Source: Amphibalanus amphitrite (taxonomy: Eukaryota > Arthropoda > Thecostraca > Balanomorpha > Balanidae). Taken from it: a DNA stretch of 64,000 nucleotides. Position numbers and translations under genes: made by a program. A model generated the notes under the pieces. The model was not told the DNA's origin. It ran no database searches and saw nothing but the letters and a program-made list of their open reading frames with translations. Of this stretch, positions 2,205 through 57,930 are shown piece after piece (within the stretch, counting starts at the first letter, position 1; each line of letters opens with the position of its first letter). The stretch lies in NCBI RefSeq assembly GCF_019059575.1, contig NW_024881839.1:218501-282500 (forward strand), written 5' to 3'.

Positions 2205-3350
2205 GCAGCTTGCCCCCCCCCCCCCCAACTCTGGGGCCGTGCGGGCGGTGCCCCCACAACTTTCAGACAGAATACCGCTCCTTTTTGCAAATGTTTTCTT
2301 TTTTTTGTTGAAAAAGCCAAGGGATGAAAAATAAGCGGCCTAAAACCGGCGAGAAAACTATATTTGGGGGATCCTAGGTTGATCTCTATCATGGTGTGAC
2401 CCCCCCCCCCCCGTCTAAAAGTAGTTCCCGCGCCCCTGAGTTTCTCTACGCTATTGAATCACGCTGCTGATTCTAGTAAGTATCTACTACACAACCTTCT
2501 CACATTAATTTTTCTTCGAGCGTTTTGGGGGGCCAAAAGATATGTTGGCCCCCTCTTTCAGGCTTTTTGGGCCCATGGCCCCGGTGGCCCCCTTGAATCC
2601 GCCAGTGGGGGCGGTGCCCCCACAACTTTCAGACAGAATACCGCTCCTTTTTGCAAATGTTTTCTTTTTTTGTTGAAAAAGCCAAGGGATGAAAAATAAG
2701 CGGCCTAAAACCGGCGAGAAAACTATATTTGGGGGATCCTAGGTTGATCTCTATCATGGTGTGACCTCCCCCCCCCCCCCGTCTAAAAGTAGTTCCCGCG
2801 CGCCTGGGTTTCTCTACGCTATTGAATCACGCTGCTGATTCTAGTAAGTATCTACTATACAACCTTCTCACATTAATTTTTCTTCGAGCGTTTTGGGGGG
2901 CTAAAAGATATGTTGGCCCCCTCTTTCAGGCTTTTGGGGGGCCATGGCCCCGGTGGCCCCCTGGATCCGCCAGTGGGGGCGGTGCCCCCACAACTTTCAG
3001 ACGGATTACCGTCCTTTTTTGCAACTGTTTTTTTTTTTTTTGAAAAAGCCAAGGGATGAAAAATAAGTGGCCTAAAACCGGTGAGAAAACTAGATTTGGG
3101 GGGACCCTAGGTTGATCTCTATTATGGTGTGCTCCCCCAGTCTGAAAGTAGTTCCCGCGCCCCTGACTTTCTCTACGCTATTGAATCACGCTGCTGATTC
3201 TAGTAGGTATTTACTACGCAACCTTCTCACATTAATTTTTCTCCAAGCGTTTTGGGGGGGGGGGCAAAAGATATGTTGGCCCCCCTTTCAGGCTTTTGGG
3301 GGGGGGCATGGCCCCGGTGGCCCCCCCCCCCCTGGATCCGCCAGTGGCGC
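2205..3350. repeat. Tandem satellite, unit about 360-368 bp
   Basis: TTTCTCTACGCTATTGAATC marks unit starts at 2,441, 2,809 and 3,168 (periods 368 and 359), with a partial unit to the left and right. Every unit has a poly-C/G tract, GGCCAAAAGATATGTTGGCC-like text, GTGGGGGCGGTGCCCCCAC, and CCTAGGTTGATCTCTATCAT. Diverged relatives lie inverted at about 61-190 and direct at about 1,455-1,592, so the family is dispersed as well as tandem. Open frames in it repeat with the unit and are not genes. Confidence 0.85.
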
Positions 3351-4011
3351 CGGCTTGTTGTGAATCTCGTGTAACAAGACAACTGAAGCTCTCGTGTCGG
3401 GACGGGACGGGCGGCTGTCGGGCGGCGCGGCTCCGGAACAGGCCCGTGGCGCGCCTCTGTCCTCCGGGGATTCATCGTAAGCTGTCCGGGCCCGGCGGCA
3501 GACTGGCAGAGCTAAACCGAGCAGACACACAGCTCCACGACAGACGGCGAGGAAATGCAGCACGACTCATCAAAAACAGCGCAGGAGGAAATAACATCAT
3601 GTGATGTGATAGGATGCTGCTGGATGCCACCAATTGTCGTGATAAGTGTGTGCGGAAATATCACGTGAAAGTGATAAATATCTCCAAGTTGTAGAAAAGG
3701 AAAAATATTTTTGCATGTTGCGTCATACAAAAAAAAAATTATTTTCAAGATTGCTGCACATAAAGCCTCAATAGCGCAGTACAAATTAAACTTACAAAAA
3801 GAAAATAACCTTTTATTACCGTGGTTATACACAGTAGACGGTTATCTATCATAAACAGATGACTGGTTAATATATTTAACCCTAAGCTATGACACACATC
3901 GTGCAGTGCACATAATGCATGTACCTATTGAATGCACTTAAATACGCCGGTGCCCTGAGGCCCAACTTTCCCAACTTTCCCACTGCACGGACTGCATCCA
4001 CTCGCAACTAC

Positions 4012-4339
4012 TTACCGCACTGCCCATCCCCAATTTCAGCCAATTGTTCTTTTCGAATTGTAAATGGGGTTAGGTACTTACCCCACTGTAGCCGGGTTAA
4101 AATCGTACCTACCCCACTATAGCCGGTCACAGTCAGTCGTAATTACCCTAATGCATCAGGAATAAACATCATACTTACCCTACTGTAACCCGGGGTAAAA
4201 ATCGTACTTGGCCCACTCTATTCAGGCCCAGCAAATCGTCCTTACCGGACTGCAGCCGGGATAAAATCGAACTTACCCCACTGCACCCGGGGTAACGGTC
4301 GTACTTACCCCACTGTAGCCGCGGTACGGTCGTACTTAC
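4012..4339 (-). repeat. Tandem array of duplicated 5' splice sites (about 31-bp unit) after the TM2 exon
   Basis: On the minus strand the exon end CCCGGCTACAGTGGC|GTAAGTACGA is followed by degenerate copies of the same unit, each centred on GG(C/G)TACAGTGGGGTAAGT. ACTTAC-type cores (plus strand) are at 4,334 (the real donor), 4,303, 4,271, about 4,241, 4,206 (decayed), 4,173, 4,107 and 4,076, with a weaker one near 4,012. The spacing is mostly 30-35 bp, with gaps. Several copies keep GTAAGT, a full match to U1 snRNA. An isolated related piece (ACCCCGCTACAGCCGA, plus strand) lies at 4,975. The reading frame of the exon stays open through the array for about 55 codons. Confidence 0.85.
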
Positions 4340-4466
4340 GCCACTGTAGCCGGGACCGAGCCAGTCGTACGAGACGACATCCATGGCCACCCACATGCCG
4401 GCCTTCAGGATGAACGATACAAACAGGTGCATGTGCAGGTTTGTCCGCGGGCACGACCTCAGCTTC
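4340..4466 (-). CDS. Class B GPCR, intracellular loop 1 and TM2 exon
   Basis: This exon is 127 nt long, with acceptor CGTTTTTCAG and donor AGTGGC|GTAAGT. It encodes (R)KLRSCPRTNLHMHLFVSF, then ILKAGMWVAMDVVSYDWLGPGYSG. The K-L-R-x-C-P-R-x-x-[IL]-H-M-H-L-F-x-S-F-[IM] signature of loop 1 and TM2 is one of the most conserved in the secretin family. The HMHLFVSFIL form looks closest to PTH-type receptors, while the ectodomain has a calcitonin-like CWD; this is an orphan-style call of class B1 only. The exon ends in phase 0 in extracellular loop 1. TM3-TM7 and the C-terminal tail must lie left of the window; no further exon was found in 1-4,000. Its 3' end with the splice donor is repeated in tandem in the intron. 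Confidence 0.95.
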
Positions 4467-5486: not shown

Positions 5487-5581
5487 CGTATGCTGCAGAA
5501 TATCACCATGGCCATGATGAGAGAAGTGAGCGATATACCGTAGCCGGCCCTGCTGATGTTCTTAATGACGGGAGTCCACAC
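5487..5581 (-). CDS. Class B GPCR, TM1 exon
   Basis: This exon is 95 nt long, with acceptor TCGACAG and donor ATACG|GTGAGT. It encodes VWTPVIKNISRAGYGISLTS and then LIMAMVIFCSIR. The GY-x-[IV]-S-L-x-S-L pattern followed by a hydrophobic run and FCSIR is the first membrane helix of class B receptors. It starts in phase 0 after the exon at 6,003 and ends with CG, which the first G of the exon at 4,466 completes to Arg. Introns on either side are 421 bp (6,002-5,582) and 1,020 bp (5,486-4,467). Confidence 0.95.
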
Positions 5582-5826
5582 CTGTCGAAAACGTCCAAAT
5601 GATCAGGCATGGTACCTGCTACTGATCTGTTTTAAGGGCTCTCACATGCACTTAGTGGGACAAGGATGCACAGAGACGTTGCATGCATACCTATTTATGT
5701 GTCACTTTTAACACTTCCGTCATCTATAGCCACTCGATAAGGTCAGGTGATATCTTATTAGGTATTTAAAGAGTTTCTATTGAGTGAAGATATCTCGTAC
5801 TCGGTGAAGTTTATCATGATGAGGGG

Positions 5827-6002
5827 TTTGTCATCTCACCTTGATCAGGTGGTTGTCTGTGCGATTGATCATGAGGAGGTGTTTATCACCTTACCTTGAT
5901 GAGGTCTTTGTGGGTGTATTTGATCATGATCAGTGTTTGCTACTCACCTTGATCAGGTCGTTAACGGAGTAGTTGATCATGGTGAGATGTTTGTCATCTC
6001 AC
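5827..6002 (-). repeat. Tandem array of duplicated exon end plus 5' splice site (about 54-bp unit) after the HRM exon
   Basis: The last 30 or so bases of the HRM exon, ATGATCAACTACTCCGATAA onward through CTGATCAAG|GTGAGATG and into the intron, recur downstream on the minus strand. Equivalent donors sit at exon-side bases 6,003 (real), 5,948 (AAG|GTGAGT), 5,895 (AAG|GTAAGG) and 5,840 (AAG|GTGAGA), at spacings of 55, 53 and 55 bp. A decayed fifth copy may extend to about 5,780. The unit shares no sequence with the array behind the TM2 exon. Reading past the first donor meets TGA after two codons. Confidence 0.88.
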
Positions 6003-6173
6003 CTTGATCAGGTCGTTATCGGAGTAGTTGATCATGGTGAGATGCTCATCGGGCAGAAGGTGGCCGCTAGACTCGGGCGCGATGTGACAGGAGCTGAAGT
6101 TGGTCCAGGTCCTGTTGTGCTCTCCGTGAAAGAACCAAGTGCCATCTGGCATGCATTGCTTCTGCATCTGGTT
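6003..6173 (-). CDS. Class B GPCR, second half of hormone-receptor domain
   Basis: This exon has exactly 57 codons, with acceptor TTTCTCAG and donor ATCAAG|GTGAGA. It contains QCMPDGTWFF, then HNRTWTNFSSC, the hallmark end of the HRM domain (C-x-x-D/N-G-x-W ... W-x-N-[YF]-x-x-C), with cysteines 5 and 6 and two sequons (NRT, NFS). The remaining residues lead through a short linker, HLTMINYSDNDLIK, towards TM1. Both ends are phase 0. The linker and donor are the parent of a tandem repeat that continues into the intron (see 5,827-6,050). The HNRTW-x-N-x-S spacing resembles PTH and calcitonin-type receptors, but I would not name a ligand. Confidence 0.95.
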
Positions 6174-7113
6174 CTGAGAAACACAATATCGGAACGTGAA
6201 GATAGTTTCAATTGACGCACCGTGAATAGTCGCCAGTAAAATAGCAGAGTGTTTTGACATGTAGCATGTATGCATCCAATCGTGAAATGCAACTATACGG
6301 TTGCAACGCGAATTAAAACTGCATTCAGCACTTAGGCACGAACAAGTTTGTGATCGTGTTTGTAGATGTTAGCAATTCATCGAATCATCTATTGATACGA
6401 CGGAGTTTAGTGTGGGGCATTTCAGTACTCATGTTTCGAAATAACTATTCAAACTGAGGGTTCCGCGTGTTTTTTCTTCACAAACATGCAATACAGCCTT
6501 AATTAACTTGCACATAAATGCACGGTATGCATGTTTTGAAGACATTTCCTGTGTTCAAACTATCATAATGCCCAGTTGTGGTCGCCTTCCTAGTGGGATA
6601 GTGCTGTGATGAAAACAGCTATTTTGATGTCACCTTTCATGAATCCTCACTACCGTACTAACGTACCGTACGGTAGTTACCGTACTAACTACCGTACTAA
6701 CGCTCTTTATTGCAAAAATATGATTTGTTTTTCTCAATTATGCAAATGGATTCGGCTTCGTTCATTTTTATATTCCGTATGGTTCTTGTCGGTCTTCGGT
6801 TTGGTTTTGGTCTTCCGATAATTTAAAACTGATACCACTAATTCATACCCGCCTGATATGTATAGGTAAAAGAATTGCAGTCACGGCCAAAGGCATCAGC
6901 AATTTCAAACATGCCGTTTTGCTACCGCATTCACAAGCCACTCTGGCTATAGAGGTTTGAACAGTTTGATCAAACCACCCTATACCGCAGTGCAGAGCGC
7001 TGTTCGCTCTAAATCCACCGGTTCCTGATGAGAGGGACCGGCGGCCGTCGACGAAAACTCGCCTTTATTATGCATTGGATGGCTAACAGGTTTTGCTACT
7101 GGGAATGGAGGCC

Positions 7114-21027: not shown

Positions 21028-23870
21028 CATGGTCAGCTGCGCCTGACGTCAGACTTGGCGGACCAATCAGCGGTCGCCGCCCGCCGTTAGCGGGCCCCGG
21101 CGCGGCGGTTTCAAACCAGCAGTTGTCGCGCGGCCGCCGTGCAGCCTGGAGCAGCGACGAGGGCTGTTCCAGCATTTGTGCAGTAAAAAGTGAAATCTGT
21201 GAACTGTGGTGTTCGTGCTGTGAGTGAGGCTCCCTCTGGCCTGCGGGACGCACTAATCGTGCCTATACCCGCGGTCGAGACGCCTCCCTTCCCCTGCGCG
21301 CGCAATGTAAGTGGGCCAGACCTGTGCAGTGTGCATGCACATGTGAGCAGATGTTTTGCGGTCGGTGTTTTTTTATATATAAATACATTTATTTGCCTTT
21401 AATTCAACTCTTTATATTTTTAACCTGATGGACATATATGGGCTGTAAAAGCTAATCTGGTTGGCGATCATGATTTATTCGAATTATATGCGTGATCGTG
21501 CAACTGCATGATTGTTATGCTTAATGTTCAGGAAATATTCGTCATACGGGCATGTTATACTTCTGGCTTGATGCGGTGCACAAAACCATGTTCTTCCACA
21601 TACGCAGCAGTTCTTGCTTCAAAGACTTATATGCTGACGGTGCACGATACACTGTAAACCAAATCTACAAGTTGGCTCCTTGTTACAAGTTTGGTTCCAA
21701 TTCGCATAGGCGTCACCTTGTCGATACCTTGTCGATTCACCAACCCCAGGCTTGTTGGCCAACAAACTAACAGTTTGTCTACAAGTTTGGTTCCAATTCG
21801 CATAGGCGTTACCTTGTCGATACCTTGTCGATTCACCAACCCCAGGCTTGTTGGCCAACAAACTAACAATTTGTCTACAAGTTTGGTTCCAATTCGCATA
21901 GGCGTCACCTTGTTGAGTACTAGTCTGGGCCTTGTGGACCTACCAACTTCTGGATTATAGGCATAGTCGTTTCCTTGTCGGTTCATCAATCCCTGGTTTG
22001 TTGATGAACTAGCCTAGCCTTTGACTGGGCATTGCTAGCTTACAAATTGTCAACAAGTAAGTGTACTAACACTCTGTTCGAACTTGCTCTTCCTTACAAT
22101 CGCTTTGTTTGCGTTGATACTTGATAACCTTAAGAACTTACGATTCGCGTTCGTTTTCAATTGCCACGATACTGATTCAGGAAATATTTTCTATACGGAC
22201 AGGTTATTTTTTGGCTGGAAGTGGTGCACAAAACCATGACTGGCATCAGTTATTGCTCATGCTCAAAGGCTTGCGCTGACAATAAACGAAATACTGATGG
22301 GTTATATACCTAATCAATGAATGCATACACCATTCCATTCGGAAGTTTCTGGAATCATTAGTATTTATTACGGTCACGTAATTAATAGGTACTATTGACT
22401 GGAGACAATTCCGAGTGCATATTTCCGAATGGATGTGGTAAATGCGTGAGGTAGGTATACCCAGTAGGTATACCTATCGTGCACCGTCAGCATATAAATC
22501 TTTGAAGCAAGAACTGCTGCGTATGTGGAAGAACATGGTTTTGTGCACCGCATCAAGCCAGAAGTATAACATGCCCGTATGACGAATATTTCCTGAACAT
22601 TAAGCATAGCAATCATGGCAGTTGCACCGTGCACGATCACGCAGATAATTCGAATAAATCATGATCGCCAACCAGATTAGCTTTTACAGCCCATATATGT
22701 CCATCAGTTAAGTTAAAAATACAAAGAGTTGAATGAAAGGCAAATAAATGTATTTATATATAAAAAAACACCGACCGCAAAACATCTGCTCACATGTGCA
22801 TGCACAGGTCTGGTCCATCTTACATTGCGCACGCAGGGGAATGGAGGCGTCTCGACCGCGGGTATAGGCACGATTAGTGCGTCCCGCAGGCCAGAGGGGG
22901 CCTCACTCACAGCACGAACACCACAGTTCACATATTTCACTTTTTACTGCACAAATGCTGGAACAGCCCTCGTCGCTGCTCCAGGCTGCACGGCGGCCGC
23001 GCGACAACTGCTGGTTTGAAACCGCCGCGCCGGGGCCCGCTAACGGCGGGCGGCGACCGCTGATTGGTCCGCCAAGTCTGACGTCATAGGCGCAGCTGAC
23101 CATGTGTATGCTGGTCCTCGGAATTGTCTCCAGTCAATAGTATTAATTACGTGACCGTAATAAATACTAATGATTCCAGAAACTTCCGAATGGATGTGGT
23201 GTATGCATTCATTGATTATATAACCCATCAGTTTTTCGTTTCTTGTCAGCGCAAGCCTTTGAGCAATAACTGATGCCAGTCATGGTTTTGTGCACCACTG
23301 GCAGCCAAAAAATAACCTGTCCGTATCGAAAATATTTCCTGAATCAGTATCGTGGCAATTGAAAACGAACGCGAATCGTAAGTTCTTAAGGTTATCAACG
23401 CAAACAAAGCGATTGTAAGGAAGAACAAGTTCGAACAGAGCGTTAGTACACTTACTTGTTGACAATTCGTAAGCTAGCAATGCCCAGTCAAAGGCTAGTT
23501 CATCAACAAACCAGGGGTTGGTGAACCGACAAGGAAACGACTATGCCTATCCAGAAGTTGGTAGGTCCACAAGGCCCAAACTAGTACTCAACAAGGTGAC
23601 GCCTATGCGAATTGGAACCAAACTTGTAGACAAACTGTTAGTTTGTTGGCCAACAAGCCTGGGGTTGGTGAATCGACAAGGTATCGACAAGGTGACGCCT
23701 ATGCGAATTGGAACCAAACTTGTAGACAAACCGTTAGTTTGTTGGCAAACAAGCCTGTGGTTGGTGAATCGACAAGGTATCGACAAGGTGACGCCTATGC
23801 GAATTGGAACCAAACTTGTAACAAGGAGCCAACTTGTAGATTTGGTTTACAGTGTACTTTAGTTGATTCC
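21028..23870. repeat. Compound inverted repeat, order a-b-a'-b'
   Basis: Segment a (about 21,028-21,648) returns inverted as a' (about 22,485-23,105), and segment b (about 21,650-22,410) returns inverted as b' (about 23,115-23,865). The copies are highly similar with scattered changes. The start of b holds a 96-bp tandem repeat, and a 65-bp piece (TTCAGGAAATATT ... GTGCACAAAACCATG) occurs in both a (21,529) and b (22,179), so a and b share ancestry. A stray ACTGTAAACCAAAT piece lies at 20,757. No coding frame is conserved between copies. Confidence 0.85.
21685..21915. repeat. 96-bp tandem repeat (ACAAGTTTGGTTCCAATTCG unit)
   Basis: Units start at 21,685, 21,781 and 21,877 (the last is partial). 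Each includes CGCATAGGCG, GTCGATACCTTGTCGATTC and CTTGTTGGCCAACAA, the latter a small palindrome. The same array is present inverted at about 23,596-23,820. Spacing and sequence do not fit CRISPR: the unit is repeated in full, without unique spacers. Confidence 0.88.
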
Positions 23871-55852: not shown

Positions 55853-57930
55853 CAGTATAACGCCTTTTGTGGCGACTAACGGAGCGAGCGAGAGGGTGGG
55901 CCTTGCACGTGCGAAATTGCGAGGGGGTACCTCCAACTGACTTGTGCACGGCACCTTACTAATCGGTCTCTAGCGATGTGCCAAATTTGAGCACAATCGG
56001 CTCAGCCGTTCTCGAGATCTGGAAGCGGCACCCTGCACGTGCGCACGTGCAAAATGGGTCCCAACTGACTTGTGCACGGCACCCTACTAACTGCTCCGTA
56101 ACCGTGTACCAAATTTGAGCGCAATCGGTCCAGCCGTTCTCGAGATCTGGAAACGACCCCTGCACGTGCGCACGTGCAGCAGCACCCCAACTCTGGCACA
56201 TGGATATGCATTGCCTAGTGGGTGCCTACCTACATGCCAACTCTCAGCGCAATCGGCCCAGTAGTTACCGAGATATTGCAACCATTACAAAAGTGACACC
56301 TCTTGGTTTTGCACGTGGCCGGTGGCACGTGCATAAGGGGTCACCCACATGCATCGGGAATAGTGCAATACTTGGTAGAAGGAATGAAGCTACCCTACAA
56401 AAATTACCGCATGTAAATCGGTCAAGTGGTTGCTGAGATATAAGCCTCGCAAAAGCGTGACCACGGCCGGCCGCTCATTACGGAGCGAGCGAAGCGAGCG
56501 GAGTCTTACGTATGTAGAACCAGTATAACGCCTTTTGGGGCGACTAACGGAGCGAGCGAGAGGGTGGGCCTTGCACGTGCGAAATTGCGAGGGGGTACCT
56601 CCAACTGACTTGTGCACGGCACCCTACTAACTGGTCTCTAGCGATGTGCCAAATTTGGGCACAATCGGCCCAGCCGTTCTCGAGATCTGGAAGCGGTACC
56701 CTGCACGTGCGCACGTGCAAAATGGGTCCCAACTGACTTGTGCACGGCACCCTACTAACCGGTCCCTATCCATGTACCAAATTTGAGTGCAATCGGTCCA
56801 GCCGTTCCTGAGATCTGGAAACGACCCCTGCACGTGCGCACGTGCAACAGCACCCCAACTCTGGCACATGGATATGCATTGCCTAGTGGGTGCCTACCTA
56901 CATGCCAACTCTCAGCGCAATCGGCCCAGTAGTTACCGAGATATTGCAACAATTACAAAAGTGACACCTCTTCGTTTTGCACGTGGCACGTGCATAAGGG
57001 GTCACCCACATGCATCGGGAATAGTGCAATACTTGGTAGAAGGAATGAAGCTACCCTACAAAAATTACCGCATGTAAATCGGTCAAGTGGTTGCTGAGAT
57101 ATAAGCCTCGCAAAAGCGTGACCACGGCCGGCCGGCCGGCCGGCCGGCCGGCCGGCCGCTCATACTCAGAAATTTCCGTTAATCTAAGGAAAGACTACGC
57201 TCGCTTCGCTCGCTCCGTAATAACGGAAATTTCCGAGTATGAGCGGCCGGCCAGCCGGCCGGCCGTGGTCACGATTCTGCGACGCTTATATCTCAGCAAC
57301 CACTTGACCGATTTACACGCGGTAATTTTTGTAGGGTAGCTTCATTCCTTCTACCAAGTATTGGACTATTCCCGATGCATGTGGGTGACCCCTTATGCAC
57401 GTCCCACGTGCAAAACGAAGAGGTGTCACTTTTGTAATTGTTGCAATATCTCGGTAACTACTTGGCCGATTGCGCTGAAAGTTGGCATGTAGGTAGGCAC
57501 CCACAAGGCGATGCAGATCCATGTGCCAGAGTTGGGGTGCTGCTGCACGTGCGCACGTGCAGGGGTCGATACCAGATCTCGAGAACGGCTGGACCGATGG
57601 CGCTCAAATTTGGCACATGGTTAGGGACCGGTTAGTAGGGTGCCGTGCAAAAGTCAGTTGGGACCCATTTTGCACGTGCGCATGTGCAGGGTGCCGCTTC
57701 CAGATATCGAGAACGGCTGGGCCGATTGTGCTCAAATTTGGCATATCGCTTGAGACCGGTTAGTAGGGTGCCGTGCACAAGTCAGCTGGAGGTACCCCGT
57801 CGAAATTTTGCACGTGCAAGGCTCACCCTCTCGCTCGCTCCGTTAGTCGCCCCAAAAGGCGTTATACTGGTACTCAGAAATTTCCGTTAATCTAAGGAAA
57901 GACTACGCTCGCTTCGCTCGCTCCGTAATA
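55853..57930. repeat. Cluster of three about 650-bp CACGTG-rich repeat units, two direct and one inverted
   Basis: Units run about 55,853-56,521 and 56,522-57,140 (direct) and 57,250-57,868 (inverted), each bounded by CAGTATAACGCCTTTTG(T/G)GG. Each contains sub-repeats ending GCCGTTCTCGAGATCTGGAA and the palindrome TGCACGTGCGCACGTGCA twice. Between units 2 and 3 lies a GGCC microsatellite (about 57,124-57,157) and a hairpin around TCCGTTAATCTAAGGAAAG. The block GAAATTTCCGTTAATC ... GCTCGCTCCGTAATAA occurs at 57,169 and again at 57,878. Frames open on both strands reflect repetition, not genes. Confidence 0.85.
57124..57157. repeat. GGCC microsatellite
   Basis: Uninterrupted GGCC units lie at the junction between the direct and inverted repeat units. 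Unit 1 has only GGCCGGCC at the equivalent place, so the tract has expanded here. Confidence 0.9.

Follow-up and report, generated by a model that had tools for sequence, protein, structure and literature searches.

The receptor gene and its exons

The window, i.e. the whole stretch of 64,000 nucleotides that was analysed (218501–282500 of its contig), carries on its minus strand exons of a gene on contig C342 which, judging by its sequence, is a class B (secretin-type) GPCR, a hormone receptor. The exon ends and their phases (0, 2, 0) are predictions made by eye from the sequence. Two tandem arrays, here called array A and array B, lie at donors of this gene. The features are listed below from 5' to 3' on the minus strand; a slash marks a predicted exon-intron junction.

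6003–6173, minus strand: ectodomain (HRM-like) exon, predicted, acceptor read from the sequence; 3' end DNDLIK/GTGAGA.
5981–6003, minus strand: perfect 9-bp inverted repeat, GGTGAGATG with CATCTCACC, covering the donor predicted as the real one in array B (z -5.7 relative to shuffles).
5801–6044, minus strand: array B, in the same gene and apparently born on the donor, 55 bp unit, 4.5 copies (TRF).
5487–5581, minus strand: TM1 exon of the same receptor (VWTPVIKNISRAGYGISLTSLIMAMVIFCSIR), predicted; donor without an array.
4340–4466, minus strand: TM2 exon of the class B GPCR (KLRSCPRTNLHMHLFVSFILKAGMWVAMDVVSYDWLGPGYSG), predicted; phase 2 in, phase 0 out.
4336–4370, minus strand: unit 0 of array A, the last 31 nt of the TM2 exon plus GTAA, holding the predicted real donor.
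4078–4335, minus strand: units 1–8 of array A, 31–34 bp each, intronic, with donors at 4308, 4276, 4245, 4178, 4146, 4112 and 4081.
4003–4077, minus strand: decayed tenth unit of array A, with a donor at 4015 (GCG/GTAAGT, 9.5 bits).
4058–3902 of locus L002, about 10 kb beyond the TM2 exon: TM3 exon of the same receptor, predicted; more exons lie beyond.

The class assignment is based on a 7tm_2 domain and an HRM ectodomain found in order, the HRM match of the ectodomain exon itself being below its cut-off (17.9 bits against 26.2). The TM2 exon matches Pfam 7tm_2 with an E-value of 1e-4 and 22.1 bits, above the cut-off of 20.6, and falls below it (16.6 bits) in a six-frame search of the genome. 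In the same genome search the TM3 and TM4 exons are above the cut-off and the last exon is below. Against PDB, the TM2 exon matches VIPR1 and PTH1R (E 3e-4). From their predicted ends, the TM2 and TM3 exons are joined in phase 0. Five donors of this gene were examined (ectodomain, TM1, TM2, TM3 and TM4), and arrays are present at two of them.

A minisatellite across the TM2 donor

TRF reports array A at 4074–4354, with a period of 31, 8.7 copies and 67% matches. Cut by hand on the minus strand, it consists of nine contiguous units from 4370 to 4078, with lengths of 35, 31, 32, 31, 34, 33, 32, 34 and 31 bp. The pairwise identity among the units ranges from 0.47 to 0.90, and in one copy (4241–4208) the donor has been lost. 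The sequence-only reading of this DNA held that the exon end plus GTAAGT founds a minisatellite that runs into the intron, and this is what is observed, with unit 0 lying across the junction. It placed the array at 4012–4345; an array is indeed found there, while its exon-side edge has to be moved, as the array reaches 4370 and thus starts about 30 nt within the TM2 exon.

Within the assembly, the unit is specific to this place. A 23-nt unit pattern, searched with up to three mismatches through the whole assembly of 807.6 Mb, gives five matches, all of them inside array A, while the same pattern read backwards, as a control, gives two matches in the assembly. A 369-nt stretch used as a query matches only itself. 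Since the unit is absent elsewhere in the assembly, array A appears to have arisen locally. Further, unit 0 starts at GTACGAC (4370), in exon sequence that can be aligned to VIPR1 and PTH1R, and GTACGAC heads unit 1 again, directly past the donor. The uniqueness of the unit, together with its start within receptor coding sequence, makes it most likely that array A originated at this exon-donor junction. No second haplotype of this receptor gene was found in the assembly.

A different origin would be that a dispersed repeat or a transposable element landed at the junction. The tandem repeat at 2239–3325, with its long stretches of G or C, does lie in the region, and its end resembles one in another locus. 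However, the array A unit is not found elsewhere in the 807.6 Mb, and unit 0 overlaps the coding sequence of the receptor. There is, in our estimate, hardly any chance that this explanation holds, and it was rejected on the uniqueness of the unit.

We infer instead that a segment of about 31 bp, running from the last part of the TM2 exon into the first few bases of the intron, was duplicated in tandem, and that the array then grew and diverged through slippage or unequal exchange. The donor motif would have been copied along with every unit, so that the intron came to start with a row of donor-like sites. Most likely, the origin of array A is an ordinary DNA-copying accident, of a kind known from lancelets.

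Other repeats in the window

Several repeats of other kinds were noticed in the window. At 2239–3325, a 368-bp unit is present three times; it has long stretches of G or C and an end that contains GGATCC. A comparable end occurs in the intron between TM2 and TM3 of the paralog C41 (locus L047, about 6470–6600). At 21044–23856 there is a nest of 14 inverted-repeat pairs with arms of 41–308 nt that are 88–100% complementary, and a 96-bp tandem repeat is present on both sides of the nest (21680–21913 and 23591–23824); the structure is foldback-like or an inverted duplication. A unit of 128 bp (1.9 copies) starting TGCACGTGCGCACGTGCA occurs at 57544–57789, at L047 2707–2952 and at L035 2315–2560. 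Its presence at three of the loci analysed with TRF suggests a family of dispersed repeats.

A second array at the ectodomain donor

Array B includes four copies, each holding the exon end (MINYSDNDLIK and variants) and AAG/GTRAG. Its donors are 6002, the predicted real one, 5947, 5894 and 5839. Reading through the real donor, a stop is reached after two codons (V and R).

A coding role for the copies of array B was considered and rejected, as the frame stops at once and the changes relative to the exon are spread over codon positions 1, 2 and 3 as 6, 4 and 8 (three copies). In the copy at 5895, five of the eight changes are at codon position 3.

The perfect inverted repeat over the predicted real donor of array B would let the donor pair with copied exon sequence, with a predicted stem of -17.1 kcal/mol. 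The other three donors of the array have hairpin z-values of -1.2, -1.7 and -2.3, and values of -2 or below are reached at two of 50 sampled donors. The stem may be a mere effect of the duplication.

Arrays at other junctions

The sequence-only reading regarded a repeat born exactly on an exon-intron junction as unusual. This was not supported: besides array B in the same gene, the arrangement recurs in a paralog and in a few of the sampled genes, and it is known from amphioxus under the name of mirages, discussed below. An array with a 34 bp unit is present at the homologous TM2 donor of C393, a distant paralog. There, an in-frame stop follows after eight codons, and a single extra donor of at least 6 bits is present, at +101 and out of frame. 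In the paralog C41, where the TM2 and TM3 donors were examined, no array was found. A degenerate GTCACTGAG-type array was also noticed directly 5' of the TM3 acceptor of C393 (locus L048, 2856–3058).

In L035 and L036, which are probably a pair of haplotypes, three copies of a 29 bp unit start at the first base of the intron. The copy number is equal (3.1 each) and the two differ in sequence only; one extra donor is GT in L035 and AT in L036, as expected of sites without function. At an ADH-like exon (L038), 44 bp is present twice across the donor. The units in L038 and in the haplotype pair include almost no exon sequence. The mirror case is seen in L059, where a duplication of 69 bp lies across the predicted acceptor of a central ABC-transporter exon.

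The frequency of such arrays was estimated from a survey of 68 exon-centred loci, comprising 30 of 119 7tm_2 matches, 8 of 16 class III ADH matches and 30 of 39 ABC membrane matches. Simple matrices were used to call the junctions, giving donors in 50 loci and acceptors in 60, the others being below threshold. Manual grouping of alleles and paralogs left 29 donor groups and 36 acceptor groups. Array A was left out of the rate because it was the finding itself.

Copies spanning the junction are present in two of the 29 donor groups and one of the 36 acceptor groups. Minisatellites cover 2.8% of the intron sequence 50–500 nt from the junctions when the loci with hits are removed, and relative to this background no excess is shown by the sample, neither at donors (P 0.19) nor at acceptors (P 0.64). 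Within 1–50 nt of the junction, again with hit loci removed, minisatellites cover 0.8% of the positions next to donors and 4.6% of those next to acceptors; the low donor-side value indicates that arrays near a donor tend to be those that span it. The last 50 nt of the exons are covered to 0.2%, microsatellites included. When six more receptor donors are added (ectodomain, TM1 and TM4 of C342, TM2 and TM3 of C393, and TM2 of C41), the count becomes 4 of 35 (P 0.016 against 2.8%), in a set whose choice was guided in part by the finding. This is a hint that arrays favour donors, to be read with that choice in mind.

Donor strength and reading frame in array A

Donors were scored in bits using a matrix of textbook human donor frequencies. 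The predicted real donor of the TM2 exon, GGC/GTAAGT (GT at 4339–4338), reaches 4.6 bits and is weak because of the C at position -1. At least six extra U1-like donors had been proposed to lie behind it, and in fact eight are found in register with at least 6 bits (4308, 4276, 4245, 4178, 4146, 4112, 4081 and 4015), six of which have at least 9. Scoring each donor with a splice model, a check that the sequence-only reading had itself named, thus places the predicted real donor below all eight of the copies. An overlapping site at 4108 and an exonic site at 4394, both with 6.5 bits, also score above it. With eight stronger extra donors, exclusive use of 4339 is uncertain. The enrichment is clear when compared with 1000 dinucleotide shuffles of the region 3997–4342: nine sites of at least 6 bits, with 4108 counted in, are observed against a shuffle mean of 2.2 and a maximum of 8, and six of at least 9 bits against a mean of 0.33 and a maximum of 3.

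The reading frame was said to stay open through the array for about 55 codons, and this agrees with the 54 open codons found between 4339 and the first in-frame stop at +162. In a simulation, 4.6% of random sequences with the same composition stay open for at least 55 codons. The extra donor closest to the real one, 4308 (+31, 9.3 bits), is out of frame. The next, 4276, also with 9.3 bits, lies at +63 in phase 0; its use would add 21 residues (VSTTVPRLQWGKYDRYPGCSG), just as proposed for the third donor of the array.

It can therefore be asked if array A is a used cassette of alternative donors, in which 4339 competes with the stronger 4276, extracellular loop 1 is lengthened by 21 residues and the copy number shifts the choice. 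The score of 4276 and the open frame are what such a cassette would need. However, the out-of-frame 4308 is the closest stronger donor, and with eight extra donors at these distances and in random frames, 28% of simulations contain one or more that are in frame and open. Nor are the donor columns conserved significantly better than the other columns of the unit (0.90 against 0.78, circular-block p 0.19), i.e. there is no sign of donor selection in array A. Further, array B and the C393 array could not do the same, because there the frame closes. Counted between the TM2 His and the TM3 Cys, the loop has 36 residues with the first donor, close to the 38 and 42 residues in two paralogs, whose loops are short; use of the +63 donor would extend it to 57. 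The similarity to the paralogs speaks for productive use of the first donor, despite its low score. We regard a used cassette as unlikely.

Another potential role of the extra donors is that of U1 decoys or of a switch to unproductive splicing, where out-of-frame use (+31 and others) would lead to decay and so set the dose of the receptor. In favour of this, none of the shuffles reached the count of six extra donors with 9 bits or more; also, in array B all extra donors would yield a truncated ectodomain ending in VR, and the predicted real donor lies within the 9-bp hairpin. However, tandem duplication of a donor yields many donors without any selection. In array A a hairpin z-value of -2 is reached at only two of ten sites, the probable haplotypes L035 and L036 do not share one of their extra donors, and in C393 a single extra donor with 6 bits or more is left. 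Nor does the array A hairpin help, as it is without covariation (0 pairs with a two-sided change). A decoy or switch function is quite unlikely in our judgement.

Folding of array A was also looked at in its own right. A conserved donor hairpin (GGGGTAA with TTACCCC) was rejected for its lack of covariation, and the whole array A stretch does not fold better than chance, with a z-value of -1.3 and 11 of 100 shuffles being as good.

Both roles could be combined into a more general proposal, that boundary minisatellites in this lineage are adjustable splicing rheostats: array A would lengthen loop 1 by 21 residues, the hairpin donor of array B would give a secreted truncated ectodomain, and changes in copy number would retune both. 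This is a speculation to which we give very little credence.

Returning to the local tandem duplication, we suggest that productive mRNA is most likely made with the first donor, 4339, in which case loop 1 would be about as long as in the two paralogs. The remaining donors would be tolerated by-products, maybe with low-level use; the lack of a function for them is what we infer from the above. Taken together, array A is probably a boundary minisatellite that arose through local tandem duplication, with the extra donors as by-products, and of the mirage type.

Relationship to the mirages of amphioxus

Tandem duplications at exon-intron boundaries have been described in amphioxus as mirages, in Adh3, the globins BflGb6 and BflGb9, PGBD5 and troponin C (PMC3087553, PMC3902484). 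There, units of 10–160 bp, splice signals in many copies and hits at both ends of introns are reported. The arrays vary in length, and regular splicing is described as undisturbed in PMC3087553, with RT-PCR and Adh3 data.

Array A shares the structural features given there. Its head-to-tail units include the boundary, unit 0 lying across the predicted TM2 donor. A splice signal is carried by the copies: eight extra donors in register reach at least 6 bits, and one copy has lost it. Similar arrays occur in several genes and at both intron ends, namely at the donors of array B, C393, L035 and L036, and L038, and at the acceptor of L059. Because of these features, array A is filed under mirages, and by its sequence it would belong to that kind. 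Some differences exist. The units of array A are more diverged (0.47–0.90) than those of BflGb6, which are 81–100% identical according to PMC3087553. Also, the host is probably a pancrustacean and not a cephalochordate, a difference in taxonomic range and not in a structural feature.

The assignment of the host is based on the mitochondrial contig C2644. With genetic code 5, it contains COX1, trnL(UUR), COX2, ATP6, COX3 and ND3, and beyond ND3 there are ND5-ND4-ND4L on the other strand and ND6; the genes were named by eye, except COX1. This order corresponds to the pancrustacean ground pattern. The GFP family is numerous in lancelets; a search of the assembly for this family gave no match, and no control matched either. 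Amphioxus as the host was rejected, since the mitochondrial order speaks against it, and no match to the GFP family was found. In the same contig (locus L046, 6751–8547), an ND4-like frame has an internal duplication of about 125 codons, possibly an assembly fault.

Among the titles and abstract openings of the open-licence papers listed, no report of a boundary minisatellite in an arthropod was found; within that scope, the animal group is probably new for mirages.

Two other kinds of events are related. In the Rogers model, introns are gained by tandem genomic duplication, with a case in the RdRp of potato (PMC4974935). The duplicated segment carries splice signals there as well; however, at array A an existing intron becomes longer. 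Tandem repeats that alter splicing or gene structure are reported for ABCA7 (PMC5954066), MIR137HG (PMC6692358) and human internal tandem repeats (PMC2812944). The likeness is that these are tandem repeats within genes; in those cases it is the effects that were studied.

If the host is a pancrustacean, mirages, which the papers found describe in lancelets, would not be a peculiarity of that group. Boundary minisatellites are natural tests of how the spliceosome chooses among near-identical donors in a row, and they are plausible raw material for intron lengthening, donor shifts and intron gain.
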